Position numbers and translations under genes: made by a program
DNA from: a virus
Length of the DNA stretch: 34,783 nt
IMG/VR virus record: IMGVR_UViG_3300025151_000141
Coordinates: 1 to 34,783 of that record
Reading direction: 5' to 3' (one strand)
Notes under the pieces: generated by a model
What the model was told of the DNA's origin: nothing
Seen by the model: only the letters and a program-made list of their open reading frames with translations
Database searches by the model: none
Part shown: positions 3,615 to 20,806 of the stretch, in pieces
How positions within the stretch are numbered: the first letter of the stretch is position 1
How the letters are laid out: each line of letters starts with the position of its first letter

Positions 3615-3621
3615 CACCAGC

Positions 3622-3885: not shown

Positions 3886-4150
3886 CTTTTTTGCTCAACT
3901 CTCCACCAAGACCAGAGTATCCTGCTAAATCAATCCAACTGTCTAGGTGCGTGGGGTCCCCTGACAATCGAACCAATTTCAAGGAAACCATGCACAGCAA
4001 GACATCTGCACTTGATACCTCTTGACCTAAAACAACAGACCAAACCTTGGCAACTTCTGCAAAATGTGCGGATGCTTCCCCGTATGAATTGTGTCGATCT
4101 CCTGTGATCAAGGAAATTGCTGTCTCTAGTATTTGCTCTCTATCCATCAT
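3875..4150 (-). CDS. DUF6378-like phage protein
   Basis: A roughly 91-residue protein with MDREQILETAISLITGDRHNSYG, then DVLLCMVSLKLVRLSGDPTHLDSWIDLAGY. The GDR-x-x-YG, K-x-x-R and D-x-WIDLAGY pattern is the small all-helical phage family I know as DUF6378. It resembles MazG/dUTPase-like helical nucleotide-handling proteins in look, but no activity is established. It overlaps the PP-loop gene upstream by about 11 bases. Two adjacent ATGs (4150, 4147) are equally good starts. The neighbouring dCTP deaminase fits a nucleotide-metabolism cassette. Confidence 0.65.
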   Translation of the reverse strand: MMDREQILETAISLITGDRHNSYGEASAHFAEVAKVWSVVLGQEVSSADVLLCMVSLKLVRLSGDPTHLDSWIDLAGYSGLGGELSKKDEE

Positions 4151-4877
4151 AACATCCACAAGGCATCTCAGAATAAAATGGGAATGTCTCCTGAAGTCCT
4201 GCTGTCTTGATTAAATGGGTCCAAGACCAATCTCGGCCTAATCCCTTAATCTTGTTCAGTTCTGCATTCTCCTCCATTGCCATCGCACGATCTTGAAGGT
4301 CTGGAGGCAACTCAAGAATTTCTGCAGGTTTTGCGTTTGGACAGAAAAAACAGGCAGACTTCCCAGGCAACGGAAGATTTTCCTTTTTGATTGCTGTAAT
4401 GCAGTCGTCACGACCCCACTCCCAAAGCAATAAAGGATATTCATTTTGGTATTTTGACGATTTGCTTTTAACTGCACGGTGCAGTTCGTCTGCATCAATG
4501 CCTATGAACTTTTGAACAACCTTTCCATTGTCCCAAACTTTTTTGCATTCTGAGTTGTTGTTGCACCACTTCTCAAACGGTTCGATCTTGTACTTGAGAG
4601 AGCAAGTTTTGAATCCAAAGGCAACAGGAGGAAGTGTCTTTTTCCGTAAACACTCTTCTTCTAGTGTTTCGTTATTACCTTCTTTGCGAATTATGGTGAT
4701 CTCAGGAAACCCATTTCGTTTACACCACAGTTGCATCCGCTCAAGGTGTTCATAGGTTTCTGGTCGTTCTCCTCCTGTGTCTGCAAACAAGATGGCATCA
4801 GGAATCCAAGACCAGTCTCTCATGCCAATCAACATTGCGGTGCTGTTCGTCCCTCCTCCATATGAAACCAGTTTCAT
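4140..4877 (-). CDS. PP-loop ATPase, PAPS reductase / DndC-like
   Basis: A 245-residue protein of the PAPS-reductase/PP-loop superfamily. The N-terminal SYGGGTNSTA (residues 5-14) is the PP-loop that binds ATP or PAPS, and FADTGGERPETYEH follows as in the family. KTCSLKYK (Cys92) and ACFFCPN (Cys176, Cys179) give cysteines that could hold an Fe-S cluster, as in DndC and related sulfur-transfer enzymes. Phage homologues are usually annotated as phosphoadenosine phosphosulfate reductase, but a true CysH catalytic C-terminus (ECG-x-H) is not visible; the end reads MPCGCYDG. A role in nucleic-acid modification or sulfur assimilation cannot be separated here. It overlaps the dCTP deaminase gene by ATGA. 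Confidence 0.8.
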   Translation of the reverse strand: MKLVSYGGGTNSTAMLIGMRDWSWIPDAILFADTGGERPETYEHLERMQLWCKRNGFPEITIIRKEGNNETLEEECLRKKTLPPVAFGFKTCSLKYKIEPFEKWCNNNSECKKVWDNGKVVQKFIGIDADELHRAVKSKSSKYQNEYPLLLWEWGRDDCITAIKKENLPLPGKSACFFCPNAKPAEILELPPDLQDRAMAMEENAELNKIKGLGRDWSWTHLIKTAGLQETFPFYSEMPCGCYDG

Positions 4878-5395
4878 TCCTCATCCTCCTTAATCCTCGA
4901 TGGTGTCGGTCCTACCTGACCTTGGTACTTCCCTCGGTATGGCCTCTTCGACTGCCCGTGCAGATTGTGCATCACCAGTTGGCAAATTCTCATCATGGGT
5001 TTGAGGAGGACGGGGGCATTGGATTGGTTGACCAACTCGAGGGTGATCTGACCTGTGAATCCAGCATCGATAAATCCTGCGTTCTGCACCTGGATGCCCA
5101 ACCGTCCGACACTGGATCTCCCATGCACGACTCCGCACATATGATCCGGCACTTTGATCAGTTCGTTCGTGGTTGCCAGCAGGAACTTGCCAGGGTAGAG
5201 GATGGTGGTCTCGACTGGGGCGAGTTTGTGGGGGTAGTCTTCATTTGTTGTGATGTACGGACGATCTTCGGGAAGGTACGGAATCAGGTAGTCCTTGCCT
5301 AAAGTCAGGTCTACTGAACAGGGTCCGAGATGGACATCGGCAGGCAAGTATCCGCTTGTGATTAGTTCCAATAATTTTTCATCCGATAAGACCAT
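4874..5395 (-). CDS. dcd: dCTP deaminase
   Basis: A 173-residue trimeric-fold dCTP deaminase/dUTPase family protein. The signature HGRSSVGRLGIQVQNAGFIDAG followed by FTGQITLEL (residues 92-122) carries the phosphate-binding Arg-Ser-Ser and the conserved Glu of the deaminase (ITLEL, Glu120), which distinguishes it from a plain dUTPase. The enzyme converts dCTP to dUTP, feeding dTTP synthesis during phage replication. AGGAG lies six bases before the ATG. A 29-base gap with an AT-rich TATATATA stretch separates it from terL. It heads the modification cassette, and its stop overlaps the PP-loop start. Confidence 0.88.
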   Translation of the reverse strand: MVLSDEKLLELITSGYLPADVHLGPCSVDLTLGKDYLIPYLPEDRPYITTNEDYPHKLAPVETTILYPGKFLLATTNELIKVPDHMCGVVHGRSSVGRLGIQVQNAGFIDAGFTGQITLELVNQSNAPVLLKPMMRICQLVMHNLHGQSKRPYRGKYQGQVGPTPSRIKEDEE

Positions 5396-7860: not shown

Positions 7861-8315
7861 TATCTCAACCATTCTGGAATAGATTCATCAACATGGGTTT
7901 TCATCCAAGACTGGCAGATGAGTTTGTTCCCATCCAAGACCACTTTCAGGGAGTGATCACGTTTACGGACGATATTGGTCACGACTTCTGCCATTTCTTG
8001 TAAATCGTCCATTGATTCTTGATTTTCGGGGATTATCCAATGATTAGGTATATAAAATATCGATCCAAGGCGACAAAACTCGCTAAATTCAAGAATTTCG
8101 CATTCTCCGCATAGTACATTGAAATCCTTAGTGTTTTTGCAGTTTTTGGCCTCACAGACCCTTGATTTGTTCCAACTTTGTTCCAACCTTGTTCCAGCTA
8201 TTTTACCAAAGTTGGAACGCTGTAGGCCAGATTCTTTCTGGTCTCCAAGGTTTTGTTCCAACTGTTCCAACTTTTTCCCCAGATTATTTATATTATTGAG
8301 ATTATATATATTCAT
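7860..8315 (-). CDS. hypothetical protein with CxxC pairs, overlapping iterons
   Basis: A 151-residue protein I do not recognise. It starts with an Asn-rich segment (MNIYNLNNINNLGKKLEQLEQN). Residues 54-72 have CEAKNCKN and CGEC, a possible zinc site, and the C-terminal half is mixed alpha/beta with CQSWMKTHVDESIPEWLR. The N-terminal third is encoded by copies of the TGTTCCAAC iteron, producing repeated LEQ peptides (LEQLEQ, RLEQSWNK), so the sequence there may be constrained by DNA function. The AT-rich start region has only a weak ribosome-binding site. The stop overlaps terS. Confidence 0.55.
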   Translation of the reverse strand: MNIYNLNNINNLGKKLEQLEQNLGDQKESGLQRSNFGKIAGTRLEQSWNKSRVCEAKNCKNTKDFNVLCGECEILEFSEFCRLGSIFYIPNHWIIPENQESMDDLQEMAEVVTNIVRKRDHSLKVVLDGNKLICQSWMKTHVDESIPEWLR

Positions 8316-8478
8316 TATTCTTCTATATTTTCTTGTATTTCTATTTCTCTCTTCACGTAATAAATAAAAAAAAGATGGAACAGATGGAACAGTCTTCTCT
8401 TTCCCTTGCTGTTACTGGGCTAGACCTGTTCCCACTTTACTTTTAAAAGGTGGAACAAGTTGGAACAGAGTGGGAACA
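8168..8478. repeat. cluster of twelve TGGAACA/TGTTCCA iterons, candidate replication origin
   Basis: Twelve copies of a 7-9 bp word (TGTTCCAAC or its complement GTTGGAACA, some with one change) start near 8168, 8179, 8190, 8211, 8254, 8263, 8376, 8385, 8427, 8451, 8461 and 8471. Several are phased 9-11 bp apart, and both orientations occur. Between the groups (8280-8375) lies an AT-rich stretch. The cluster sits directly downstream of the primase-helicase stop and partly inside the next gene. Spaced iterons beside a replication initiator and an AT-rich segment are the usual look of an iteron origin. The P4 alpha protein, also a Toprim/SF3 protein, is known to bind short GGTGAACAG-like iterons, as I recall, but equivalence is inference. 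Confidence 0.6.
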
Positions 8479-8499
8479 TTTTCATCATGGTCTCTTGAG

Positions 8500-10758
8500 T
8501 CAGAGCATCATCACGCCAACATACTGGCGGATGAGGCTGGTTCCTTCTCTTGCTCGTTTGACTTCTACACCGAGAGCAGCAAGGTCTGCAGTGATTCGAT
8601 GAGTGGATTGCATTCGGTAGCCATTTTGTTCACACCATTCCTTGTATTTCTCAATGAAGAAGGACTTCTCAACTTTACCGATAGGATCACCTTCTTCGGT
8701 TGTTTTGATCTCGCAGCATTCTTCTAAGAATCCACGGAACGGATGAGTCTCTAGTCTGAACTTCTCATGTTCCTGTGCCATTGAGTTGGAGTGAGTGAGG
8801 TTCATGTTCTGGTTCATCATCCGAATTAATCCGAGCAGTGCCCAGTTGAAGATCCCAGGCAGTTCATCTTTAAGCTTGTAAAGCAGAGCAGGATCTCGTT
8901 CATGATCTTCAAAAAACCGTTGGAATCGGACGATGTCGAAACGTCGATAGAATCCTTCAGAGTGATCCCTGGTAGGATTGAACTTATTGGCAGAGAAAAG
9001 GATTCGGGCAAAGGGCTGGAACTCAAACGGGTCATAGTGTTTGCGTTCGGCAACGGTGTGTTCTCCTGCGACGATCTTCTTGAAACTGGTATGGATGACA
9101 GTGTTGGTGTCCACATCGCTACAGATGTTGGCTAGTTTCCCCTGCAGTCCTCCGACCTTGAAGCGATCAAACATCTCTGCGAGTTCTAGGCTGGAGACGT
9201 TGGCAGATCCAATGACTTCTCGGAGTGTTTGGAGGAAGACAGACTTCCCGTTCTTTCCATCACCGACCAGCATCAGACATCGTTGCAGAGAGACATCAGG
9301 AACAAGACAGTATCCACACCATTCCTGCAGTCGTTGGATCGTATCCTTCTCGAGTTGGACTTCTTCCAAGAATGCTTTCCATCTTGGACAATCGGCAGAC
9401 TCATCATAGTCATAGTCTCGCAGGATCGTCGTATGGTCTTCTGCACTCCACTGTCCTTTACGGAACTCTCCAGCATCGAGGTCCAAAGTGCCGTTACGGA
9501 AGACCAGCAGTTTTGGGTTGTGATCAAACTCAATCAGGTTGCCTTGTTGGAGGATCATCTTGGACTGAGACAAGGTGTCCTCAACATGGGAGGAACGCAG
9601 CATCCCTTCCTCTGCACCTTTGCCTCGACAGACCAGACGACGGATCTCTGCCTTGGCAGACTCTGGTTCCAGTCGTTCCCAGACCTTCCCATTGAACTGC
9701 CAGAGGTCTGGATGTTGATAGACTCGGTGTTCATGGGAGAGAACCCAGGACTCTGCAGCAAACTGACTCGAGAAACTGATTGCTCCCTTTTCGCTGATCT
9801 TCCACCAGGAAGCAGGGATCTCGGCTGGTTTGTCAAGGACAGACTCAATCTGATCACGGACTTGATCCTTACCAATCTGGGCAACCAGGTCATTGAAATC
9901 TGTTCCGGTGTCTGATCCGTCAGGCCATTTGGGAGCAACCCAACGCAGAGAAAATTCCTGTGCCAGTTTCTCAGCTTCCTCCATTCCTCGATTTCGATCC
10001 TTAAAACGGTCATCATCAGCACAAAGCAGAACCTGTGTCTGACTAGTGAACCGAGGCAAAACGGCCTGCAGGACAGGTTTGAGGTTCCCTAGATTAAAGG
10101 CAACGACCACAGGGTATCCAGTACACTCATGAAGACTGGCAGCAGTTGCAAAACCTTCACAGACCAGCAAGACCTCTGGGGTTACTTCATCAGGGTCTGT
10201 TCCGATCCAGAAGAACCCACCACGGGCCTTTCCATTGGGTAAAAATAATTTGTTGCCATCGTCATCAATGTACTGCAGGGTTTGAATCTGTTGTCTCTCA
10301 TTCATCAAGGGAATAACCAGACGATCCTGATTCTGGTCACGTTTGAAACGAATCCCATTCGGTCCAATCCCTTTCTTCTGCAGGTACGGATGATCTGCAG
10401 GGGCATCTACGGACTTCTCCCAGATTCTCGTTGCATACTCTGCAGATTCTTCGTACTTCTGCCGTTGCAGCTCTTCCTGCTTGGCTTTCAGTTCCTCATG
10501 AATCTTCTGAGCCTGCTTGTATTCCTTGGTTCGTTTGTCGGTGGTTTCCAGATTGGTCCAGACATATTTTCCACCCATCCGCCAATCTCCAAAGACAAGG
10601 ACCTTCAGGTCTCCGGTATCCTTTCCGGTGTACCATCCCGCCTTGTCCATTGGTTTGCCATTGGCAGAGAACCGATGAATCTCCTCGTCAAAGAAGATTT
10701 CATCGGGTGGAGTCATGCCTTTATGTCTGATCACCTCATAAGGGTCAGAATAAAACAT
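8500..10758 (-). CDS. primase-helicase, Toprim plus SF3 (D5/P4-type)
   Basis: A protein of about 752 residues. The N-terminal third leads to a Toprim domain with CEGFATAASL (near residue 200) and CADDDRFKDRN (near 245). A D5_N-type linker (CPRWKAFLEEVQ, RLQEWCGYCL) is followed by the SF3 helicase: Walker A MLVGDGKNGKS (about 496-506), acidic ICSDVD (about 545) and ILFSANKFNPTRD with the RRFDIV arginine region. It would prime and unwind DNA at the phage origin. The ATG at 10758 overlaps the SSB gene by 14 bases; a TTG seven codons upstream is less likely. Iterons lie immediately downstream. Confidence 0.9.
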   Translation of the reverse strand: MFYSDPYEVIRHKGMTPPDEIFFDEEIHRFSANGKPMDKAGWYTGKDTGDLKVLVFGDWRMGGKYVWTNLETTDKRTKEYKQAQKIHEELKAKQEELQRQKYEESAEYATRIWEKSVDAPADHPYLQKKGIGPNGIRFKRDQNQDRLVIPLMNERQQIQTLQYIDDDGNKLFLPNGKARGGFFWIGTDPDEVTPEVLLVCEGFATAASLHECTGYPVVVAFNLGNLKPVLQAVLPRFTSQTQVLLCADDDRFKDRNRGMEEAEKLAQEFSLRWVAPKWPDGSDTGTDFNDLVAQIGKDQVRDQIESVLDKPAEIPASWWKISEKGAISFSSQFAAESWVLSHEHRVYQHPDLWQFNGKVWERLEPESAKAEIRRLVCRGKGAEEGMLRSSHVEDTLSQSKMILQQGNLIEFDHNPKLLVFRNGTLDLDAGEFRKGQWSAEDHTTILRDYDYDESADCPRWKAFLEEVQLEKDTIQRLQEWCGYCLVPDVSLQRCLMLVGDGKNGKSVFLQTLREVIGSANVSSLELAEMFDRFKVGGLQGKLANICSDVDTNTVIHTSFKKIVAGEHTVAERKHYDPFEFQPFARILFSANKFNPTRDHSEGFYRRFDIVRFQRFFEDHERDPALLYKLKDELPGIFNWALLGLIRMMNQNMNLTHSNSMAQEHEKFRLETHPFRGFLEECCEIKTTEEGDPIGKVEKSFFIEKYKEWCEQNGYRMQSTHRITADLAALGVEVKRAREGTSLIRQYVGVMML

Positions 10759-11371
10759 CCTCTTCCTCTGGAGTGGCAATCTGCTTTTCTTCCTTCACTT
10801 CCTTTGGTTTCTCCAAGGGAGTAACGGACCCTTCAAAGACCTGCTCATTCTTGAACAGACGGGTGAGGTCGTACTTGCTGGACTTGATCTGATCACGGAC
10901 ATCCTTGGGCAGTTCGGCCTTTCCCACAGGGACAACACTGTACTTCGTGTTGACCCCTGACCCGTTCTTACGGATCTTGATGTCATAATCCTTTGGATCT
11001 TCCCAGTCAGGATCAGCGAAAAGTTTCAGCAGGTCGTTGCGAATGCTGGCCTGGGTGAACTCAAAGATTTGGGGTCTCATCTCTTCCCAGTTGTAAACCA
11101 GCAAGGCCCAGAAGTGTTTGACATCATCGTACTCCCTGGCTTCCAGTTCTGCTCTGGCCTCATCGCTATATTCCACTCGGTGACAGATGTTCTTCTGTGC
11201 TGTACGTTCCCAGGAACTCCACCCCATGATGGCAGTCTTGGGAAAATCAAAGTTTCCAAGGACACGGATCTTGACAGGTCGATCCATGTGATCAGATTCA
11301 GGAATCCTTGAAGGAACCAGGAAGTCCCCCCCTGCGGAGGGTGCTTTGTAGGATTTGGGCAACCAAGCCAT
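10745..11371 (-). CDS. single-stranded DNA-binding protein
   Basis: A 208-residue protein with an OB-fold-like core (KHFWALLVYNWEEMRPQIFEF, DYDIKIRKNGSGVNTKYSVVP) and a highly acidic tail ending TPEEEDVLF. An acidic tail closing in an aromatic residue is the shared mark of phage SSBs such as T7 gp2.5, which use it to contact replication proteins. The N-terminus (MAWLPKSYKAPSAGGDFLVP) is typical of the phage SSB group I recognise. The ribosome-binding site AAAGG precedes the ATG by five bases. The gene overlaps the primase-helicase start, so the two are coupled. Confidence 0.75.
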   Translation of the reverse strand: MAWLPKSYKAPSAGGDFLVPSRIPESDHMDRPVKIRVLGNFDFPKTAIMGWSSWERTAQKNICHRVEYSDEARAELEAREYDDVKHFWALLVYNWEEMRPQIFEFTQASIRNDLLKLFADPDWEDPKDYDIKIRKNGSGVNTKYSVVPVGKAELPKDVRDQIKSSKYDLTRLFKNEQVFEGSVTPLEKPKEVKEEKQIATPEEEDVLF

Positions 11372-11396
11372 CTTTACCTTTTGTTTAGTGTTTTGT

Positions 11397-11891
11397 TTAC
11401 TGATTCTCTATTGCCAAATGCTCACGCAGGCTGGGAATCTCTTTACGTTTATCACTAGCCATCATGGATAGACTTTTCAGACGCACAGCAACCTCTCGGT
11501 GACGGTGTTTCTGATGATCATCCAGTTCCTCAAATCGGGTGAAGGACACTCGACGTTGAGCCTTGTCCAGCATCTTGGAGAGGTGCTGATGCAGTTGCCT
11601 TTCAGCAAGTTCCGCCTGCTCAGAAGGAGGAACCATTCGGTATCCTTCTGTGCGGACGTTGACCAGATCGATTTTATGATCCAGTAGCAGATGGTCACGG
11701 AATCCCGTGAAGTGCTGCAGGAACTCGATCTGACGTTTCTTGTATGCCTCGACGGAGATCCCTTCCTGATTCGGATGGCATTCAAAGAGGTCATAAAAGA
11801 ACTGGTGAGGGATCAGCTCACCAATCTCATAGAGTTCCAGAATCTCCTCGACTCTGGCTTTCCAAGCAGGGTAGACGGTGAGCTTTTCCAT
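11397..11891 (-). CDS. hypothetical helical protein in the replication block
   Basis: A 164-residue protein I do not recognise. It is predicted mostly helical, with charged C-terminal repeats (RRVSFTRFEELDDHQKHRHREVAVRLKSLSMMASDKRKEI). There are no cysteine clusters, signal peptide or membrane segment. Its start overlaps the stop of the RAMP-like gene (TAATG) and it is 25 bases ahead of the SSB gene, so it is co-translated with replication or recombination proteins and probably acts with them. No function is claimed. Confidence 0.6.
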   Translation of the reverse strand: MEKLTVYPAWKARVEEILELYEIGELIPHQFFYDLFECHPNQEGISVEAYKKRQIEFLQHFTGFRDHLLLDHKIDLVNVRTEGYRMVPPSEQAELAERQLHQHLSKMLDKAQRRVSFTRFEELDDHQKHRHREVAVRLKSLSMMASDKRKEIPSLREHLAIENQ

Positions 11892-12460
11892 TAGGCGGCT
11901 ACCTCTAAATTGAATTTGCCGTAAGTAGGACGGTAGTCACAGAGACCAACCAGACGACCTCCAATCTCGAGGAACTGCTTCACCTCAATTGCATCAAGTT
12001 GGGATGGATCAATGGCAACCTGAAACTCTGCGGCCCATTCATCAAAGAAGGGTCTGGTACGGATCACAGTGGATCTGTTCACGGTGACAGGTCTGCGGTC
12101 CCTGAATCCCTTTCTGTATAAGGATGGGATGTCGGAGGGTCCGTCAAAGATCAGTTTGATCTTGTCCTCTACGGTTTGCAGGGCACGGGTCACGGTCTTG
12201 CCTTTCTTAGAGAACTTTGCAGCTTCTCGCAGCAGAGCATCCATGCAACGGCCTGGGATGTAGGGACCAATCTTTGGGTCATGGTAGATACCTGCCTGGT
12301 ATTCAATGAAGGCCAATTCCTCATGGTGTTCATCGGTCTTGTTTCGAACAGACGAAATCTTCTTCATCTGTTTGGCTAATGGATGCAACGGGTCACAAGC
12401 GACATTGTTGTGCATCATCAATGGGGTTTCCCCCTTAATTTGGAAACGTAGAATTTCCAT
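11891..12460 (-). CDS. conserved phage protein with RAMP/Cas7-like motifs
   Basis: A 189-residue protein of a phage family I recognise by its opening (ILRFQIKGETPLMMHN) and DEHHEELAFIEYQAGIY segment. GPYIPGRCMDALLREAAK (residues 65-82) resembles the IPGSSLKGALR motif of RAMP proteins, and the end, GLCDYRPTYGKFNLEV, resembles the C-terminal Gly-rich part of Cas7-like subunits. A RAMP/RRM-like fold that coats a nucleic-acid strand is therefore plausible, but it is inferred from motifs only. No other cas gene or CRISPR array is present. The ribosome-binding site AAAAGG lies eight bases before the ATG. The gene is the first after the pentanucleotide array and heads the replication operon. Confidence 0.65.
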   Translation of the reverse strand: MEILRFQIKGETPLMMHNNVACDPLHPLAKQMKKISSVRNKTDEHHEELAFIEYQAGIYHDPKIGPYIPGRCMDALLREAAKFSKKGKTVTRALQTVEDKIKLIFDGPSDIPSLYRKGFRDRRPVTVNRSTVIRTRPFFDEWAAEFQVAIDPSQLDAIEVKQFLEIGGRLVGLCDYRPTYGKFNLEVAA

Positions 12461-12683
12461 AGTGTTTACCTTTTCTTGAGTGAGAGAGTGAGAGTAGAGA
12501 GGCAGTCACGCCTCGCCACTCCAAGTGTGTAAAATTCTAGATCCTGTCTTGCCTGGACACACCTAAACTGAACAGAGCAGACCCGAACATTCCCGATCTC
12601 AACTCAGCAGACCTAAACGGACCCGATCTCAGCAGAACGCACCTCAACTTGACTAACCCTGACATGACACACCTTGTTCCCAT

Positions 12684-12730
12684 CTAACGATAGGAGAGAA
12701 GGACCTTTAGTCCCTCTATTCTGTCGTTAG
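12684..12730. repeat. array hairpin, copy 1
   Basis: A 47-nt inverted repeat with outer arms CTAACGA and TCGTTAG (7 bp), an imperfect middle stem (TAGGAGAGAAGGAC against GTCCCTCTATTCTG, with two G-U pairs and two mismatches) and a CTTTA loop. It separates pentanucleotide blocks A and B. It is preceded by cccat and followed by CC, as in copy 2. There is no U-run after the stem on either strand, so it is not a standard terminator. Confidence 0.85.
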
Positions 12731-12797
12731 CCTAACCAAACCAAATCCGGCAACAACTCACCCCAACCAACCTCAACCAAACTAACCCTGATCCCAT

Positions 12798-12845
12798 CTA
12801 ACGATAGGAGAGAGACCCCCCATAGAGTCTCTATTCTGTCGTTAG
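12798..12845. repeat. array hairpin, copy 2
   Basis: A 48-nt version with the same outer arms (CTAACGA/TCGTTAG) and the same lower middle stem. The upper stem has changed to GAGAC pairing with GTCTC, with a longer C-rich loop (CCCCCATAGA). Sequence change on both sides of the stem with pairing kept argues that the fold, not the sequence, is under selection. It separates blocks B and C. Confidence 0.85.
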
Positions 12846-12967
12846 CCACGCCTTACGATACCGTAGCCAATCTAACCAGATCCCAACCCATCGAAACTCA
12901 CCTGATCACAGCTCATCCAAACAAAGCGGACCAATCCAAATCTCACCTTTCCATACCTCGTTCTGAT

Positions 12968-13014
12968 CCAACGATAGAATAGAAGGGCTTTTAGTCCCTC
13001 TGTTCTGTCGTTAG
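12968..13014. repeat. array hairpin, copy 3
   Basis: A 47-nt copy with arms CCAACGA/TCGTTAG (one mismatch near the base), middle stem TAGAATAGAAGGGC against GTCCCTCTGTTCTG, and a TTTTA loop. Relative to copy 1, several substitutions keep pairing through G-U wobbles or repair a mismatch. It separates blocks C and D. Start-to-start distances between the copies are 114 and 170 bases, so the repeats are not evenly spaced. Confidence 0.85.
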
Positions 13015-13081
13015 CCGCACCCCAACGCATCACATCCCAGCAAACCTCAACTGACCTGATCCGACACAGTCTCAACACACC

Positions 13082-13425
13082 TCGCAATCAATGTAGTCTT
13101 GAAATAGGAGACCAGCACCTTCTCGCCAGATCCCAAGTGGCGTTATCGGTTTGGACTAAAAACCTCGTCAACGTTACCGTGTCAGCAGAACGTCGAGCGC
13201 ATTGACAGCTTTATGCTGAGAGGACCCAATAGCGTAATTACATCCTCTGATTCTTTGTCCGTGACTGGTCTCTACCAGGCCCACAGGATGGACCTGATGC
13301 AGATCAGTCGGTGGTGCTGAGATCGTAGGGGAGAGAAAACGTACAAAAACTCCCTTATTGATTAGGTGGCACATGACATAGGAGAACTTTTTTAGGGAGG
13401 ATTCTCCGACCACTTTGCCCAGCAC
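13082..13425. other. gene-poor segment between the array and the zinc-module gene
   Basis: About 340 bases with no convincing gene. A minus-strand open frame from a GTG at 13425 to 13174 (83 codons) begins just after the stop of the zinc-module gene, but it resembles nothing known and lacks a clear ribosome-binding site, so I would not call it. A small hairpin CTGGT-CTCT-ACCAG lies near 13264-13277. A possible leftward promoter is listed separately at 13142-13171. Nothing else stands out. Confidence 0.4.
13142..13171 (-). promoter_or_regulatory. possible leftward sigma70-type promoter before the array
   Basis: On the minus strand TTGACG (plus 13166-13171) and GATAAC (13142-13147) are spaced by 18 bases. 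Matches are five of six at -35 and four of six at -10. A start here would transcribe the pentanucleotide array as the leader of the replication operon in the GNUNN orientation. The match is moderate, and transcription could equally come from upstream. Confidence 0.3.
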
Positions 13426-14538
13426 CTATAGTTCAAATAGTTCTGTTTCGTCCTCATCAATCACTGACCCTGCTGCCCAGACGGGGTGAACGTACCGAGT
13501 GATCGTCTTGCCCTTCTTCAGATAAGCCCAAATCTCCTTGGCAAACCCAGTCTCAACTGGACAGTCCTTGACCTGGATGGAACTGTCGTCCCACTTGCGT
13601 TGCAGCTCAACCTGATTGGCCTGTTCCTTCTCCAACTCATCAATCTTTTCCTGACGTTTGGCGGCTTGGTATCCACCTCGACATTTGTGGGAACAGAACT
13701 TTGCCATCGATTTTCTAGTTCGTGACGTGAACTTCTCCTTGCAGTGCAGACAAGTTTTCGGTCTGATGGGCGAGTTGTCTGTCGCTTTACGTCCTCTCTC
13801 TCGTTGGGCATCACAATTACAACTGGCGGAACAGTAGACATGGCGTGAGTGCTTCTGCTCAAAGTGGTAGTTGCAGGATTTACATTTGACGATCTTCTTT
13901 TTGGGTTCTCCCCTCACTTTCCAATTGTTCCACTGTGCCCGCTCCTTTCTGGCAGTCTCAAAACAGTCGATGGTGCAATACTTCTGATGAGATTTCGTCT
14001 TGGTATAGTCCTTCCCACAGTGCAGACAGGCCACGATCTCTGCAGGTTTGCGAGGATTGGATTCCCAACATTTGCGTCCACAGAATCGGTGTGCCAACGT
14101 CTTGGGCTTGAACATCGTTCCGCAGGTCTCGCAGGGTTTCTCAGGCCGATCCTTTACATATAACCCCAGTCGTGCCCTCTCTTTCTTCGACTCGTAAGAA
14201 CACTCAGGAGAGCAGGTAATTGCTCTCTGATTGGCATAGAACTCAATCCCACAGACGACACAATTCTTGGGAGGATATTTCTTTGGCGCATTACGTTGAT
14301 TCCTCCGCTTAACACTGCACTCCTTGCTACAGGTAATTGATCTCCTGTCTGCCTGGAAGACGGTCTTGCAGACCACACATTTCTTGGGATTGACGGACCG
14401 ATATTTCGCCTTCTCATGCTCTAACTTATGGAGTCTGCTGCAGACCTCTCCACAGGCCAGTTGATGCGCCCGAATGGGGATGTACTTTAACTCACAGACG
14501 ACACAGATCCGTGGTTCGTTCCATCGCTTCTCACTCAA
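13426..14538 (-). CDS. protein with seven tandem four-cysteine zinc modules
   Basis: A protein of about 370 residues built from seven modules of C-x2-C-x12-15-C-x3-C. First cysteines fall near residues 12, 54, 93, 136, 171, 219 and 263. Modules 1-3 share CVVC and 2-3 share ITCSxECS, while 4-7 have CxxC and YC or FC. Linkers are Lys/Arg-rich. A C-terminal extension of about 85 residues (charged helix QEKIDELEKEQANQVELQRKW, then an acidic end) lacks cysteines. This looks like a nucleic-acid-binding repeat protein; no family name is certain. The TTG at 14538 is chosen because AGGAG lies seven bases before it and it overlaps the upstream stop. It is the gene just ahead of the pentanucleotide array. 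Confidence 0.75.
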   Translation of the reverse strand: MSEKRWNEPRICVVCELKYIPIRAHQLACGEVCSRLHKLEHEKAKYRSVNPKKCVVCKTVFQADRRSITCSKECSVKRRNQRNAPKKYPPKNCVVCGIEFYANQRAITCSPECSYESKKERARLGLYVKDRPEKPCETCGTMFKPKTLAHRFCGRKCWESNPRKPAEIVACLHCGKDYTKTKSHQKYCTIDCFETARKERAQWNNWKVRGEPKKKIVKCKSCNYHFEQKHSRHVYCSASCNCDAQRERGRKATDNSPIRPKTCLHCKEKFTSRTRKSMAKFCSHKCRGGYQAAKRQEKIDELEKEQANQVELQRKWDDSSIQVKDCPVETGFAKEIWAYLKKGKTITRYVHPVWAAGSVIDEDETELFEL

Positions 14539-14719
14539 CTTTCTTCTCCTCCATCTTCTCATCCCATTCCCAGAAAGCGCAGGAATGGAGTGGGGCCTCA
14601 TCTGCCCCAGTGACCCCGCACATTCCCCAAATATAACTGCTGGGAATGCGGAAGTTCCCTGCAGTTCGGTAGTGCCGACAATTGCGGCATTGTTTGTTGC
14701 CGCTATGGGGAAAGGTCAT
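14531..14719 (-). CDS. small cysteine-rich phage protein
   Basis: A 62-residue protein, MTFPHSGNKQCRNCRHY, then CGVTG and HSCAFWEWDEKMEEKKVE. The CRNCRHY motif with a later Cys-Gly and HSCAFWE is a common small phage metal-binding pattern with four cysteines (CxxC, one central, one C-terminal). The function is unknown. The ATG overlaps the upstream stop (ATGA) and its stop overlaps the TTG start of the seven-module gene. Confidence 0.7.
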   Translation of the reverse strand: MTFPHSGNKQCRNCRHYRTAGNFRIPSSYIWGMCGVTGADEAPLHSCAFWEWDEKMEEKKVE

Positions 14720-15048
14720 AGTTCAGCAATCTTGTGGGGGTCCACATCGTAGTCCCAGGTCCGGTCATTCATCGGGTCATCTCGTCTGTCCAACTTTTCC
14801 TGCATCGAGATGTCTGCGGGACGGAGATCCGTACATCCTTTTGAGTGGTCTGCAGGACGAAACAAACCACACTGGGGGCACTGGTAAACTGCAGTGTAGG
14901 ACTGCCGGATCTCCTTGGACCTTGCCTCTGCACGACGAACAGATGCCCAGTACGCACGACCCATCCGTTTCGTTTCTTCCTTGAATGCTTCAAATCGAGC
15001 ATTCAGTTTTTCTTCTGTTGTCTGAGTTTCCATTTCAAAGTGATCCAT
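14716..15048 (-). CDS. hypothetical protein with zinc-ribbon-like cysteines
   Basis: About 110 residues: an N-terminal charged helix (EEKLNARFEAFKEETKRMGRAYWASVRRAEARSKEIRQ), then YQCPQCGLF with a further Cys in KGCTDLRP, and an acidic C-terminus. It could form a partial zinc ribbon. I do not recognise the family. The start is unsure: ATGs at 15048 and 15033 and a TTG at 15066 are all possible, and every one overlaps the upstream gene. The stop overlaps the next start (ATGA). Confidence 0.55.
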   Translation of the reverse strand: MDHFEMETQTTEEKLNARFEAFKEETKRMGRAYWASVRRAEARSKEIRQSYTAVYQCPQCGLFRPADHSKGCTDLRPADISMQEKLDRRDDPMNDRTWDYDVDPHKIAEL

Positions 15049-15323
15049 TGAAGACGTACCCACCAATAGGCACGACGAAAGAAGAGTTGCTGACTGGGAC
15101 GTAACAGGCGGGACTTGCGGTGCTGAATCTCTAAATCAAAGAGGTATTCGACTCTAGACATTGGGAACTCCATGTATTGGGTTGGTTCATCCAATGGGAT
15201 GCAGATGACCTTCGCACGTTCCTGCGTACTAATGTCCACACCATCAATGGTGATTTGATTCTGCACCCCAGTGGGAACCCAGTTTTTGCCTGCAGGATGT
15301 GACCACGGACAGTCGGCAAGCAC
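15003..15323 (-). CDS. hypothetical protein, GTG start
   Basis: A 106-residue frame starting with GTG at 15323. It has a beta-rich middle (NQITIDGVDISTQERAKVICIPLDEPTQYMEF) and a very basic, aromatic C-terminus (FFRRAYWWVRLQWITLKWKLRQQKKN). I do not recognise it. There is no good ribosome-binding site, but the frame lies in line with its neighbours with only a 24-base gap upstream. The C-terminal end overlaps the next gene by up to 46 bases, so the end or the next start may be misplaced. Confidence 0.45.
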   Translation of the reverse strand: MLADCPWSHPAGKNWVPTGVQNQITIDGVDISTQERAKVICIPLDEPTQYMEFPMSRVEYLFDLEIQHRKSRLLRPSQQLFFRRAYWWVRLQWITLKWKLRQQKKN

Positions 15324-15347
15324 GGTACTGGGGGACCGGTGAGGGAT

Positions 15348-15527
15348 CTATCTAGCCATCTGGCTCATCTGTCGGATCTGTTCATTGATCCGCCCTTCCT
15401 CCAATCTTCGGAGGGTCCGCACAGCAGCAACCTCTTGGTCTGCTGCAACCTGTTTGGAGATGATCCGCATCATCTCCTTGATCTCACGGAGATCAGATTT
15501 CATTTCCTTGAATTCTTGGTCGGTCAT
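15348..15527 (-). CDS. short coiled-coil protein
   Basis: A 59-residue protein (MTDQEFKEMKSDLREIKEMM, then RIISKQVAADQEVAAVRTLRRLEEGRINEQIRQMSQMAR) with heptad-like hydrophobic spacing and no cysteines. It is probably a helical oligomer of unknown role. The ATG at 15527 lies inside the 3' end of the upstream regulator gene, overlapping by 35 bases. It is listed because it fills the gap between two leftward genes in the same early operon. Confidence 0.5.
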   Translation of the reverse strand: MTDQEFKEMKSDLREIKEMMRIISKQVAADQEVAAVRTLRRLEEGRINEQIRQMSQMAR

Positions 15528-15693
15528 TCAGTAGTCCTGTGATTTCGCTAATGGCTGAACGTGTCCAAAGGATTGGACCTCTGGGTGTGTATTGCCTGCT
15601 TGACTTCGTTGTCCCTGACTGGTGAAGTTTTCTCAATTTATCAATTGAGACACCTGTCTCTTGCGATAATTCTGTAGTCGTTATAAGGTTCAT
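15493..15693 (-). CDS. small helix-turn-helix regulator, MerR/excisionase-like
   Basis: A 66-residue protein starting MNLITTTELSQETGVSIDKLRKL, a MerR/Xis-like winged-helix opening (TELSQETGVSIDKLRKLHQSG), then RGPILWTRSAISEITGLLND. It is read leftward, divergent from the repressor at 15781, with the shared switch region between them. That places it as a Cro-like or excisionase-like first gene of the early leftward operon. An ATG three codons upstream (15702) is also possible. The exact role cannot be told from sequence. Confidence 0.6.
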   Translation of the reverse strand: MNLITTTELSQETGVSIDKLRKLHQSGTTKSSRQYTPRGPILWTRSAISEITGLLNDRPRIQGNEI

Positions 15694-15726
15694 GGCTTGC
15701 ATGGTTAGCAGTTAGCTATTGCTAAA

Positions 15727-15762
15727 TAATCACTAAAATAGTGATTAAAATATTTAAGTCAA
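15727..15762 (-). promoter_or_regulatory. leftward promoter with embedded palindromic operator
   Basis: A perfect 9-bp inverted repeat TAATCACTA-AAA-TAGTGATTA spans 15727-15747. On the minus strand TTGACT (15757-15762) and TATTTT (15735-15740) are spaced by 16 bases, so the -10 box lies inside the palindrome. This is the expected layout for an early leftward promoter shut by the repressor encoded just to the right. A smaller inverted repeat, TTAGCA/TGCTAA, lies at 15705-15725. Repressor binding is inferred. Confidence 0.6.
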
Positions 15763-15780
15763 GCACTAAGAAAGGGAATT

Positions 15781-16031
15781 TTGGCGAAAGCAAGTGTTCC
15801 AGCTAAAATTGGTCAAGAAATTCAATTAGCTAGGATAAAAAAAATTGGAGTCAGTCAGACTTGGCAGAGCATTTCGGTTGGGGTCCATCTGGACAGACCT
15901 TGATTTCCAGGTTGGAAAAAGGGTCAACCAAGACAGATGCCGATAAATTAAAGACTATTTTAGACTTCTTAAATATCGAGCAGGATGCTGAAGATGGTCA
16001 GGAGATTGAGGACCTTGTAAAAAATTTATAA
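15781..16031 (+). CDS. phage repressor, Xre/CI-like, frame broken at A8 tract
   Basis: Frame one from a TTG at 15781 reads MAKASVPAKIGQEIQLARIKK, then leaves the homology. The -1 frame continues NWSQSDLAEHFGWGPSGQTL, ISRLEKGSTKTDADKLKTIL and DFLNIEQDAEDGQEIEDLVKNL to TAA at 16029-16031. Joined, these form a clear Xre-type helix-turn-helix (LARIKKNWSQSDLAEHFG...ISRLEKG) of about 83 residues. The joint falls exactly on A-AAA-AAA within a run of eight A (15837-15844). Either the ribosome slips by -1 there, or one A is missing through sequencing error or mutation. AAGGG lies four bases before the TTG, which is close spacing. Confidence 0.65.
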
Positions 16032-16049
16032 AAAATTTGTTTTTTCTTG

Positions 16050-16078
16050 TTGACTATTACACGCAATGCGTGTCTAAT
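16050..16078 (+). promoter_or_regulatory. rightward promoter with palindromic operator in its spacer
   Basis: TTGACT (16050-16055) and TCTAAT (16073-16078) are 17 bases apart, five of six consensus matches in each box. The spacer holds a perfect palindrome ACACGCA-A-TGCGTGT (16059-16073), with flanking pairing of GACTATT and AATAGTC. It should drive the three small rightward genes starting at 16133 and looks tightly regulated, perhaps by the HTH protein at the end of that operon or another regulator. The operator differs from the one at 15727, so a second binding protein is implied. Confidence 0.6.
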
Positions 16079-16132
16079 AGTCTCAACAGGTTAGCAATGA
16101 CGCTGATCTAAATCAGACACAACAGAGGCAGC

Positions 16133-16366
16133 ATGATTCAAGTTTGGAATCCCAAAGACAATCCACTTCCTTGGAAATGGGGAAAAGGACAGAAAAAGTT
16201 TTCGGCACGAATCAAAATAGGTTCGTGGGTAGAAATTGATTATCGTGCAGGACTTCCTGGTTGGTTCCAAGTTGTCGAAATCAGTTCTAATCGTGACTGG
16301 ATCAAAGTAGATGGGTTAGAAGGTGAGATTGTACGACATCAAATGATAAGTTTTACCAATAAATAA
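16133..16366 (+). CDS. hypothetical rightward protein, SH3-like look
   Basis: A 77-residue protein starting MIQVWNPKDNPLPWKWGKGQ, then FSARIKIGSWVEIDYRAGLPGWFQVVEIS and GLEGEIVRHQMISFTNK. It is beta-rich with a GSWVEI-x-Y and GWFQVVEI pattern that suggests a small SH3-like barrel; no family is recognised. GAGG lies five bases before the ATG. It is the first gene after the regulated promoter at 16050-16078 in the lysogeny-side operon. Confidence 0.6.
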   Translation: MIQVWNPKDNPLPWKWGKGQKKFSARIKIGSWVEIDYRAGLPGWFQVVEISSNRDWIKVDGLEGEIVRHQMISFTNK

Positions 16367-16369
16367 AGT

Positions 16370-16600
16370 ATGACACACAAAGAAATTGCTCAATCACTAA
16401 CCAAAGCCCGTGGGATTTGCCACTTTACTGGCGAACCTCCCACATTCTCAGATTTGCTGGAAATGGTAGAAGAAGCAGACGTTGCATTGGCTGACACATT
16501 TGGACGTTATGACCATGTCACCATTCAAGCGGTTGTTCGTAAGATGCTGCAGAAAAATGATTCGGCCTCAAGAATCTGTGCAAATCCTCTTACCATATGA
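16370..16600 (+). CDS. hypothetical rightward protein
   Basis: A 76-residue protein, MTHKEIAQSLTKARGICHFTG, then EPPTFSDLLEMVEEADVALAD and HVTIQAVVRKMLQKN. It looks mostly helical; I do not recognise it. The ATG comes three bases after the previous stop, and its stop overlaps the next ATG (ATGA), so the three rightward genes form one coupled unit. Confidence 0.6.
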   Translation: MTHKEIAQSLTKARGICHFTGEPPTFSDLLEMVEEADVALADTFGRYDHVTIQAVVRKMLQKNDSASRICANPLTI

Positions 16601-16764
16601 CCAGCATTGAATTCAGACATGCTCGACAGAGGTTAGGCATGTCAATGGTCGAGGCATCCACTAAGTGCGGTGTACCCTATCGTACATGGCAGGATTGGGA
16701 AGCAGGCAAACGGAGAGTACCCCCTTGGGTCAAGTGCCTGCTTTTCTATCTGGAGAGGAGTTAA
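16597..16764 (+). CDS. small helix-turn-helix protein
   Basis: A 55-residue protein, MTSIEFRHARQRLGMSMVEA, then STKCGVPYRTWQDWEAGKRR and VPPWVKCLLFYLERS. ARQRLGMS-EAS-x-CGVPYRTWQDWEAGKR is a typical Xre-type HTH with the recognition helix at YRTWQDWE. Its ATG overlaps the previous stop. It is the last gene before the attP-like site. A role in regulating the rightward promoter or assisting integration/excision is possible, but neither is shown. Confidence 0.7.
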   Translation: MTSIEFRHARQRLGMSMVEASTKCGVPYRTWQDWEAGKRRVPPWVKCLLFYLERS

Positions 16765-16778
16765 ACGTTATGATCTTT

Positions 16779-16931
16779 GTGCTAGTAAGTGCTAGTGTTG
16801 AAATTCCTCTGGAGGCGTGCGCCCATCAGGACTTGAACCTGAAACCTACTGATTAGAAGTCAGATAAGATTAGGTCTTAACACACTGAATTTGTTTGGTA
16901 TATTTAGGTAAATGAAAAGTGATGTGCTTGT
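16779..16931. other. attP: attP-like site: tRNA-Arg(UCU) 3' half with candidate arm sites
   Basis: On the minus strand 16864-16818 reproduces the 3' half of a tRNA-Arg gene, positions 27-73. It has an anticodon arm with loop CTTCTAA (anticodon UCU), a five-base variable loop, a 5-bp T-stem TCAGG/CCTGA around TTCAAGT, then TGGGCGC and discriminator A. No matching 5' half (GCGCCCA) lies upstream, and the outermost anticodon pair is a T-T mismatch, so it is not a working tRNA. GTGCTAGT occurs twice, ten bases apart (16779-16786, 16789-16796), on one side, and GTGCTTGT (16924-16931) on the other, as arm-type integrase sites would be. Phage genes lie on both sides, so this reads as attP rather than attL/attR. 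Confidence 0.7.
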
Positions 16932-16935
16932 GTGA

Positions 16936-19005
16936 TCAGTCCAAAAGTCCACTAGAAATCCTACCACTGAGACCTCCAAAGAACATATTTCGACGGGCAT
17001 TTTCCTGTGCCATCAAGTCCCTCAGTGCCGCATAGTTTTGCAGGTCGTCCAGACTCTGACCAACGGCAGCAGATCCCTGTCCAGACAATCGAGGACCTAG
17101 TTGTTCTGACATCTGTCTCATCTCTCTGCGTCTCAGCAGATCATCCGCAAAGGTTGCCCCTCTTGCCAGGAGATCCAGTTTGTTTGCCTGCATTGCACTG
17201 CTGAACTCATTGGGAGTTAGTCCACCAAGTTCATCTTGATTTGCCAGACGTTCTGCAGTTCGACTGTTTCCTAATACATACCCTGCAGTTTCGCTCATCG
17301 TGCGTTCTGCATCCATCTCTCTCTGGAACTGTGCATACTTCTCAGGAGTTGGGAATAGGATTTCAATGCGTCTCTGCATATTCGGAGAGGACCAGTCTCT
17401 GGTTCGATCTCCTGCAATGGCAGTTTTCTCGTTCATCTGGTCCTTCAGTTTTTGTACAAACCCTGAACGCATGGCATTCATCTCTGCTTCAGTACGACCT
17501 TCTACGAAATTCTGCAATCGATCTGGGGGCATTCGGGGGATCTCTGTATATCCTTGCAAATTCAATCTCTGCATCTCTCTCGTATCAAATCCTTCTCGAC
17601 GCAACTGCTGATAGGCAGGATTATCAACATCTGCAGCATCCATCATCTGCGAGTAGTTCTTGGACAGAGATCGACGTTCTGCCCCAGAGACATAACCAGA
17701 CTCCACAGGTCTCCGGTCAATCATATCCCCTACCCCTTGCCGTGTATCTTCAATCTCTCGGACTGTGTAAGGACCTGGTCGAATGTTGCCTTGATCCGTT
17801 TTGATTGGGCCTGTTGTCGGTTCGCCAGCAAATCCGTAGTTCTGTTGTATGGATTTCTGAGCTTGTGAGAATCTGGGATCTCTCTCATAAATCTGCTGAT
17901 ATACTGGACTCCGCATCAAGTCGTTCTGGATTGCCTGATATCTTGGAGAAAGTGCATCTCTCGTCTGTTTCATCTCTTGAGCAAATAATTCTGGATCAGA
18001 TCCAACACCCATCCCTCTTTCTGCACTACCAATCAACCTTTCTCTCTGCCCTGCTTGCCGATTAAACAACATATCACTGATCTGCTCAGATGCAGGTCCT
18101 GGGGTCGATACCAGTGCATCGGTAGTCTTTCTCAGATTCCGACCTGCTAGGTCAGGCATGGCAACTTCTGCCCCTCGTTGAGCTGTCTCAAACTCACCGA
18201 GTCGTTGTCTGGCAGCATCCACAGCAGCAGCACCTCTCAGTCCTGTGTCGTCTTCAATACTGGTCAGCAGTTTGCGGAGGGCACGGTTGTTGGGATCATA
18301 ATCATTGACAGGAGAGGCAGGCCCAATCGGAGTGTTTCCACCAGATCCTGAGAGCAATCTCTGCAGTCCTGCACGACCTAGATCCACGGCTGGACTGATA
18401 GTCCCACCTGTCGCAGCACCAACTGCTGCACCAATGCCAACATTCTGATCTGCCCCTGCTGCCGTCAAAGCACCTGCCCCTGCACCAGACATTGCTCCAG
18501 TCGTTGCAGACCTGGCAACATTACGGATAGGTTGTCCGGTAGTCGGTTGCAGCATCTGAGGCAACTGCATCCCCAATCGTGCTGCGGCAGCACCTTCTGC
18601 TGCACCTCCCATGATTCCACCTCCGACATTCATCAGTGCGGTTGCCGTGGGGTCGATGTTCTGGAAGGTCTGGCGTTCCCCTTCAATCTGGTTCTTTGCC
18701 TCGTCATAGGTTTCATCTGTGACCAGAGTGCGGAAGATGGCTTCCACCTCATCACCCCATTCGTACATCAACCCCCCTGCAATCTCTCTGGCAACTGCCC
18801 CTGCAAACTGAGGACTGAACTTGTCACCGAGGGCCTTCTGGTATCCTGCCTTCTTGCCTTGTTTGTTGATCAGATAGCGGACTGCGTCCTCAAAACTGTC
18901 TCGACTGTACCCTTTTCGACGCAGGTACTCGTTGATGTTTTCTTCCGAAACATTTCTAGCCCTTGCATCAGAGACTTTGACTAGAATCTCCTGCAGTTTG
19001 GTCAT
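16936..19005 (-). CDS. ejection/internal virion protein with Gly/Ala-rich segment
   Basis: A 689-residue protein, the last gene of the structural operon. It starts MTKLQEILVKVSDARARNVS with a small helical domain (EENINEYLRRKGYSRDSFEDAVRYL). Around residues 125-205 there is a long Gly/Ala-rich stretch (NVGGGIMGGAAEGAAAARLGM, TTGAMSGAGAGALTAAG, GIGAAVGAATGGTI) like the membrane-active glycine zippers of phage ejection proteins. The rest is charged, helical and Gln/Arg-rich. Such proteins are packed in the virion and enter the host with the DNA. No enzyme motif is seen. It ends five bases from the attP-like region. Confidence 0.7.
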   Translation of the reverse strand: MTKLQEILVKVSDARARNVSEENINEYLRRKGYSRDSFEDAVRYLINKQGKKAGYQKALGDKFSPQFAGAVAREIAGGLMYEWGDEVEAIFRTLVTDETYDEAKNQIEGERQTFQNIDPTATALMNVGGGIMGGAAEGAAAARLGMQLPQMLQPTTGQPIRNVARSATTGAMSGAGAGALTAAGADQNVGIGAAVGAATGGTISPAVDLGRAGLQRLLSGSGGNTPIGPASPVNDYDPNNRALRKLLTSIEDDTGLRGAAAVDAARQRLGEFETAQRGAEVAMPDLAGRNLRKTTDALVSTPGPASEQISDMLFNRQAGQRERLIGSAERGMGVGSDPELFAQEMKQTRDALSPRYQAIQNDLMRSPVYQQIYERDPRFSQAQKSIQQNYGFAGEPTTGPIKTDQGNIRPGPYTVREIEDTRQGVGDMIDRRPVESGYVSGAERRSLSKNYSQMMDAADVDNPAYQQLRREGFDTREMQRLNLQGYTEIPRMPPDRLQNFVEGRTEAEMNAMRSGFVQKLKDQMNEKTAIAGDRTRDWSSPNMQRRIEILFPTPEKYAQFQREMDAERTMSETAGYVLGNSRTAERLANQDELGGLTPNEFSSAMQANKLDLLARGATFADDLLRRREMRQMSEQLGPRLSGQGSAAVGQSLDDLQNYAALRDLMAQENARRNMFFGGLSGRISSGLLD

Positions 19006-19012
19006 AGGTCAC

Positions 19013-20806
19013 TCACTGAAGTAGGATGTCATCAGGGTCTTCGCTTACTTGAGGGAGTGCCCCCTGGATTCGGGCTTGTTCCGCAGTTTTCAATTGTGCT
19101 TCCTGCACCTTCAATGCTCTCATCTGTCGTTTGCGTTCTTTAGCTTCCGGTCCTTCCCCTGGTGTGGGGAAGTATTGTTGACGGTATGATTCATATTCTG
19201 ATTGGGCAATGGCAGCACCAGATGCAGCTCGCAATACGTTCTCAATCCAACGATCTTGGGCATCTATTTTCATTCGATACTCATCTGACTGGAATCGTCG
19301 GAATGGCATTGCTTCATCAAAACTGAAGGTGTCCATTGGCTCATCATAATTGTTGCTGATGATCTCCTGTTCAAACCCTGCTAAGACATTCCCCCTTGCC
19401 CGTTGTTGCTGTTCCGTCAGATTCGGTTTCGCAGGGACGACACTGCTCTGATTCTTCAGTTGTTCCTGCTGTTGTGCTAATGCTGGGAACTTCTTCACAT
19501 AAAAAGATGGGATCGTTGGGTAGGTCTTGAACCGTTCCGTCTGTTGCTTCTGTGGATTCCATTGAGTCGTTTCATCCGAGGGTTCTAGGAATAATCTCTG
19601 GAATGCCATCTGAACCTTAGGATCGTTGGCTTGTTCTGCTGTGGCATTGATCAGGATGTCCTCGTCTCGTTCTGCCTGACTTCCTCTGGGTTTGGTCTCC
19701 GGTTTCTTCGGTTCTTCAAACTTACTGATGGCAGAGATCAGATCCTTGGACTCATAGGCAGCATAGGTCTCAGCAGGTTGTCCTGTGTAGGTTGCCAGTT
19801 TCTCTCGCAGATTCTGAGTCTCCTGCATCTCTGCAGTGGGGAAGAACTGATGATATTCCGACTGCAGCATTTCGGGACTCATCCCCATCAACTGCTTTCG
19901 ACGTTCCACCCGTTGGGTTTGATTGAGATCAGGTTGTTTGCCGAGGATTTGACTGACCTGGCTTTCTTTTAGTTGTCTAGCCAGTCGTCGGGCCTCTGCC
20001 TTTTCTGTCATCGTTGCACTGGTCTGCTGGGCACGACTGATGGCATCAGTGGTCAATGCCCTCAGATACATGATGTCGTACTCTTCTTTTCGGGCCTCAC
20101 GTTCATCTTCAATTCGTTGTCTCTCTGCCTCTGTCAGTCTCTTCTTCGTTGACCCATACCCCTGAACAAACCCACCGAGACCCTTGGCAAGTGCAGAACT
20201 CAGAGTCACATCATTCGGGTTCGTGCTGTACCTTGGGGCAGACATCAATCCCAGTCCTGCCTGAATCAATCCCATCCTCGTTGGGTCATCAAAGAAATCC
20301 ATATCTACATCCAGCAGACCGCCACCCTGTGCTGGAGCAGACTGAGCTTGTGCTGGTGCAGAAGTCTGTGGTCTGGCAGGAATCTGTACAGCAGTGTTTG
20401 CCTTTGCCGTTGCGGGTAACTGAGGAGGTGTAATCGGTTGGACAGGTCGAGGTCTGGTCTGTACTGAGCTGAGAGGATCATAACTAGCAGGGGGTCTCGC
20501 TCCCCGTGTCTCTGCACTCCGGTTTGTGGGGATTGCTTCCCTTTGGCGTTGATCCCGATACTGCTGGAACTGCCTCTCAATCATTGATGCTGGATCAGAT
20601 CCCAGGGTCTTTGGCAAGTTCGGCATCATGGCCTGCTGGAGTCTTGCTCGGTCCAACTGATCCAGATAATCCAAAGCATTCGGAGAGTATGCAGAGGCAG
20701 GATTGGATAGGTTTGGATTGGGGATCGTGCTTAGTCGAAAGAACTCCTCATCCAGATACTTCTGGTAGTCCTGTGCGTTGGGCAGTCCCGAATATTCTAA
20801 TGCCAT
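19013..20806 (-). CDS. internal virion/ejection protein, low complexity
   Basis: A 597-residue protein, MALEYSGLPNAQDYQKYLDEEF onward, with a Pro/Ala/Gln-rich region (residues about 100-165) followed by a short hydrophobic Gly stretch (MGLIQAGLGLMSAPRYS) and long charged helices (EAERQRIEDEREARKEEYD; EARRLARQLKESQVSQILGK). The composition and the location between two similar genes suggest an ejected virion protein. AGGAG lies six bases before the ATG. There is no recognised catalytic motif. Confidence 0.6.
   Translation of the reverse strand: MALEYSGLPNAQDYQKYLDEEFFRLSTIPNPNLSNPASAYSPNALDYLDQLDRARLQQAMMPNLPKTLGSDPASMIERQFQQYRDQRQREAIPTNRSAETRGARPPASYDPLSSVQTRPRPVQPITPPQLPATAKANTAVQIPARPQTSAPAQAQSAPAQGGGLLDVDMDFFDDPTRMGLIQAGLGLMSAPRYSTNPNDVTLSSALAKGLGGFVQGYGSTKKRLTEAERQRIEDEREARKEEYDIMYLRALTTDAISRAQQTSATMTEKAEARRLARQLKESQVSQILGKQPDLNQTQRVERRKQLMGMSPEMLQSEYHQFFPTAEMQETQNLREKLATYTGQPAETYAAYESKDLISAISKFEEPKKPETKPRGSQAERDEDILINATAEQANDPKVQMAFQRLFLEPSDETTQWNPQKQQTERFKTYPTIPSFYVKKFPALAQQQEQLKNQSSVVPAKPNLTEQQQRARGNVLAGFEQEIISNNYDEPMDTFSFDEAMPFRRFQSDEYRMKIDAQDRWIENVLRAASGAAIAQSEYESYRQQYFPTPGEGPEAKERKRQMRALKVQEAQLKTAEQARIQGALPQVSEDPDDILLQ

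Follow-up and report, generated by a model that had tools for sequence, protein, structure and literature searches.

What would a phage do with a stretch of DNA in which the same base returns at every fifth position? Such a stretch is found in the 34.8-kb virus record analysed here, the whole of which is called the window. An earlier examination (the sequence-only reading) had proposed that a protein touches one set of bases every five nucleotides of this array, and had stated that it knew of no described phage element of this form. The latter statement was overtaken by a preprint of April 2026, the first description of VIPR, a phage-borne RNA-guided DNA-binding system (PMC13142463). VIPR consists of a small RAMP protein, Vipr, and of guide RNAs (vrRNAs) built of GGY/NN pentamers and ending in a structured, nearly invariable 3′ tail for which a pseudoknot was reported. 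The published vrRNAs have 9 to 16 repeats and bind double-stranded DNA via the NN pairs, leaving out one target base between pairs, and the system was proposed to predate CRISPR (PMC13142463). This preprint was the only paper found in our literature search on the Vipr of Escherichia phage SUSP1.

A non-coding array with a period of five

On the plus strand, C occupies every fifth base 27 consecutive times at positions 12543-12673, 20 times at 12862-12957 and 10 times at 13016-13061, the next-longest run of this type in the window being 9. The region 12501-13100 was compared with 2,000 dinucleotide-preserving shuffles of itself. Its longest period-5 run (27) contrasts with 5.6 on average and at most 12 in the shuffles, and the other periods from 2 to 12 gave runs of 4 to 5 with the exception of 14 at period 10, a multiple of 5. 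The excess over shuffled sequence, which the sequence-only reading had proposed as a check of its period, is present. The array stretch is non-coding and is flanked by a zinc-module/HNH gene (13426-14601, minus strand) and by an operon comprising the phrog_4652, phrog_5926, SSB and primase-helicase genes; it is located directly upstream of the RAMP-like phrog_4652 gene (11891-12460, minus strand) and shares its orientation. The claim that the period is not codon-driven is upheld.

Read on the minus strand, the unit is GNYNN. Segmentation independent of the earlier blocks yielded 76 pentamers in four tracts of 14, 23, 12 and 27 units, which reproduces exactly the previous count and blocks (27, 12, 23 and 14), and the array extends to 12539, beyond the limit of 12543 set before. 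Over the 76 units, position 1 is G in 73 cases and position 3 is a pyrimidine in 73 (T61, C12, A3), the latter corresponding to the purine that had been noticed two bases before the plus-strand C. Position 2 (G33, T21, A15, C7) and positions 4 and 5 are free, as had been claimed of three positions of the unit.

No near match to positions 8000-20000 of the window was found among named phages. Elsewhere in the window, two neighbouring open frames (26237-27073 and 27525-27938) both match the tail-fibre family phrog_11355, which is suggestive of a duplication, and genes for a DNA methyltransferase, a PAPS-reductase-like and a dCTP-deaminase-like protein lie close together (2775-3617, 4140-4877 and 4874-5395, respectively).

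The arrays accompany the gene of a RAMP-fold protein

A DNA-only scan, in which 2.9 million viral contigs were searched for 20 C spaced five bases apart and no protein information was used, returned at least 120 loci. Roughly half were pentapeptide-repeat genes (coding period 15), which were set apart and used as a control, and about 50 were mostly non-coding arrays. A phrog_4652 gene recurs beside these non-coding arrays: when the full records were searched with a profile, the family was detected on 42 of 50 array contigs and on none of 50 pentapeptide-gene controls. The SSB, primase and zinc-module proteins of the window matched only near-identical relatives among the array loci. The RAMP-like gene, which the sequence-only reading had listed among its candidate binders, recurs beside such arrays in unrelated phages; the analogies of that reading with primase, SSB and TRAP were wrong.

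The reverse search gave a concordant picture. Among loci fetched by the protein alone, a sense-strand period-5 G run of at least 11 was present in 70 of 75 viral and 66 of 80 cellular loci (136/155), compared with 0 to 2 loci at periods 4, 7 and 8, and 4 to 13 at the coding periods 3 and 6. Since the pairing holds in both directions, array and protein form one module. The arrays also accompany vipr in unrelated phages as well as in bacterial chromosomes. These data bear on the alternative that the array would be a replication, priming or SSB-loading site for the neighbouring replication genes: its position beside the replication operon is the only point in favour of this, Vipr and not the SSB, primase or zinc-module protein recurs with the arrays, and we regard it as extremely improbable.

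Two departures were seen among the collected loci. In one vipr clade (L083, L037, L088 and L099), the period-5 arrays have C instead of G on the sense strand of vipr, so that either the guides are on the other strand or the consensus is different. A distant Vipr homologue (29% identity) was found among the structural genes of the marine phage phiHSIC (ORF22, L128), with short period-5 G runs of 8 upstream and 11 downstream.

The window vipr gene encodes 189 amino acids, and its product matches PDB entry 36pp_D, "SUSP1 Vipr protein", over its full length (residues 1-187, E 2e-28). The model of the protein (pLDDT 95.3) predicts a Csm3/Cas7-like RAMP fold. With this model, the best solved relatives among the 50 Foldseek matches listed were Csm/Cmr RAMP subunits (best E 2.3e-06); the structure library ran to 8 April 2026, and 36pp was absent among these 50 matches. 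In a tree, the window Vipr groups with those of SUSP1, Pseudomonas phage Medea1 and Gordonia phage MakoManhole (support 100/100), which suggests that the window system is type II-like. The gene that follows vipr (11397-11891, minus strand, 164 amino acids) belongs to phrog_5926, the family of the genes located after vipr in SUSP1 and Medea1. This assignment comes from a profile search, which was convincing for the SUSP1 gene whereas BLASTP alone was not; from its position, the SUSP1 gene would be the vipr-accessory gene vap1, and the window gene is accordingly called vap1-like.

Cas7-type RAMP proteins of Class 1 CRISPR systems form a filament on a guide RNA in which bases are periodically unpaired. 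The predicted fold of the window Vipr is that of these subunits (Csm3 and its kin). However, the period is six bases in Class 1 systems and five in the window, where the guide information would be split into dinucleotides. Moreover, the window has no repeat-spacer array: its imperfect hairpins are 115 and 169 nucleotides apart with period-5 tracts between them, and no further cas-like family was detected among the PHROG-scanned window genes.

Candidate guide tracts and their 3′ tails

All the elements of the array are on the minus strand. First in transcription order is tract A (14 units, 13012-13081), defined by segmentation and position counts and having homologous tracts in L122, L124 and L125. 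It is followed by tract B (23 units, 12843-12957), tract C (12 units, 12728-12787) and tract D (27 units, 12539-12673). The lengths of tracts B and D exceed the published 9 to 16 repeats, and fusion or overlap of guides may account for this, tract D perhaps consisting of two.

A hairpin of 54-55 nucleotides, which had escaped the sequence-only reading, occurs in three copies between the tracts. These 3′ tails are located at 12962-13016 (tract A, overlapping its last unit), 12793-12847 (tract B) and 12679-12732 (tract C). All three were identified by alignment and covariation. Nine sequences, three from the window and six from relatives, agree with a single covarying hairpin in two parts: 97.5% of the cells are paired, and the covariation is 0.255 vs 0.159, with none of 500 shuffles as high as the former. 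Tract D is devoid of this tail type and ends just before vipr in a different hairpin (12490-12522), predicted from single-sequence folds in four relatives, which may be its tail. In three relatives, an A+T-rich piece (ACAATATCAGAATTTAATCCTTTT) replaces the hairpin after the first tract (L122 1497-1523, L124 3486-3512 and L126 3287-3313); the window has neither this piece nor the tract that precedes it in these relatives.

No sigma-70 promoter was recognised in 12300-13500. In the VIPR arrays interspersed with hammerheads, ribozymes are found between the guides; in contrast, a search of 12300-13300 detected no hammerhead or other ribozyme family; its only matches were two weak ones to MIR8008, with scores far under the gathering threshold.

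Comparison with the published VIPR loci

The window locus resembles the type II VIPR of SUSP1 (PMC13142463, PDB 36pp) in its full-length Vipr homologue, in the following gene of the same PHROG, in the period-5 G/Y guide tracts with free NN and in the structured 3′ tail. Four differences were noted. The middle G is present in 96% of the SUSP1 units compared with 33 of 76 in the window. SUSP1 has one tract upstream and three downstream of vipr, whereas all four are upstream in the window. Tracts of 23 and 27 units contrast with the published 9 to 16, and the tail is a simple two-part hairpin in place of the pseudoknot of the preprint. Given the relaxed middle G, the window consensus is related to GGY but is not strictly GGY.

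Vipr proteins about 40% identical to that of the window are encoded by Pseudomonas prophages (the P. fulva clade of the preprint; e.g. L163, L218 and L209). The tracts of these loci are G-N-Y with the middle G partly relaxed (about 0.5-0.66) and, unlike the window, they are temperate elements with known hosts. In L232 (Lachnospiraceae MAG) and L236 (Clostridia MAG), the middle G is nearly absent (1/51 and 1/40), and the consensus is G-nonG-Y.

The target code in relatives

We scanned 542 guide tracts against 2.3 Mb of collected loci, from which the loci fetched by target seeds were excluded. With one target base skipped, 31 guides had a match scoring at least 18, compared with 0 and 3 for shuffled guides; many of the 542 guides are interrelated, so that the 31 should not be taken as that many independent events. 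In the same scan, skips of 0 and 2 bases gave 0 and 1 matched guides. In 24 of the 31 best pairs, the skipped base was at the wobble position of the longest open frame. These results, which include targets for the Pseudomonas guides, agree with the one-base-skip code of PMC13142463 and reproduce it in relatives.

Among the targets found for the guides of relatives are vipr genes carried by other elements, and a long gene, possibly that of a tape measure, in Pseudomonas prophages. With a one-base skip, guides of L170 and L207 match vipr itself (TKAHKELT.KR) in numerous other elements, near 3582-3617 in L145, L157, L162, L171, L183 and others, and are in this sense anti-VIPR guides. Guides of several Pseudomonas elements (L163, L164, L165, L218 and others) converge on one conserved segment (TVLLQQGGQLKDMFGGI); the targets, at L170 5666, L182 5733, L197 5761 and L205 6951, are within a 2.4-kb open frame, possibly a tape-measure gene.

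VIPR might also operate in the window with a changed code, in which the free middle base would be read too and pair with the skipped target base, the unit becoming a contiguous triplet. Position 2 varies as much as the NN positions do, and tract A and its relatives, read as contiguous triplets, form an open frame in which the middle-base changes are at four-fold degenerate positions, although the sample is small. However, tract D read in the same manner contains stop codons. In relatives with targets, a non-G middle base matched the skipped base in 16 of 98 cases compared with 26.5 expected by shuffling (58 of 283 in another count), and the relaxed middle G also occurs in Pseudomonas loci whose guides obey the plain skip rule. 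The contiguous-triplet code suggested by tract A was rejected in the relatives, and we judge a changed code in the window to be very unlikely. It is similarly very unlikely that the code of this subclade is unlike the one-base skip in a broader sense, either because the free middle base conveys information on the target or because each of the 23- and 27-unit tracts is a single very long guide.

The window's own guides had no target in the 542-guide scan. Exact skip patterns of tract D units 1-10 and of tract A with its variants gave 0 matches, a seed taken in the L124 tract had a single match, with nothing beyond the seed, and seeds in tracts B and D hit 5 and 33 loci with flanks at chance level. 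Peptide-level target searches of named phages yielded nothing useful.

Guide turnover among close relatives

In 66 homologous guide units from relatives, the G at position 1 never changed. Position 3 changed three times, always between C and T, and positions 2, 4 and 5 changed 5, 8 and 4 times, respectively. The window and L122 have Vipr proteins 99% identical, and 8001-12732 aligns at 95%; nonetheless, L122 has no tract similar to tract B, and tract D is common to both only in its first 10 units. Judged from these alignments, the change of guides alongside a near-identical Vipr is the turnover that would be expected of guides.

This observation also bears on the possibility that the array yields an RNA whose sole role is to bind Vipr, as a decoy or regulator with no target in DNA, for instance to control vipr expression or to titrate the Vipr of another phage. 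The location of the array directly upstream of vipr and the failure to find a target for the window guides would both suit such a role. The lack of a target in public collections is, however, weak evidence, and both the guide turnover with Vipr almost unchanged and the one-base-skip targets of the relatives' guides fit targeting better. We give such an RNA a very low probability.

Discussion

We consider it very likely that the array encodes a set of VIPR guide RNAs next to vipr and that the window phage is a new carrier of this recently described system. The identification relies in the window on the periodicity with its conserved G and Y and its free positions, on the full-length homology of Vipr with its predicted RAMP fold and its place in the SUSP1 clade, on the adjacent gene of the vap1 family and on the covarying tails. 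In relatives, it relies on the pairing of array and vipr and on the one-base-skip matches. Counting against it are the lack of a target for the phage's own guides, the middle G in 33 of 76 units, the over-long tracts B and D, the different tail of tract D and the lack of a recognised promoter. The protein contact every five nucleotides that the sequence-only reading had anticipated would fit this identification.

By analogy with a single preprint (PMC13142463), transcription, protein loading and silencing in the window phage may be pictured as follows. The vrRNAs would be transcribed from the minus strand toward vipr, each tract being a run of G-N-Y/N-N pentamers that ends in a structured 3′ tail. 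Copies of Vipr would line up along the tract, one per five bases, each holding the conserved G and Y and leaving the two variable bases exposed. The NN pairs would then be matched to double-stranded DNA, each separated from the next by one skipped target base (NNxNNx...), usually the wobble base of a codon. The gene bound in this way, most likely that of a competing phage, satellite or prophage, would be silenced, probably with the assistance of the vap1-like neighbour.

The period, visible by eye in the raw sequence, is the signature of an RNA-guided system, and this signature alone finds such systems. The sequences gathered here independently provide a check of two claims of PMC13142463, namely that arrays accompany Vipr and that guides match their targets with a one-base skip. 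Finally, the subclade whose middle base is free offers a natural experiment to tell which of the three bases of GGY are needed by Vipr.
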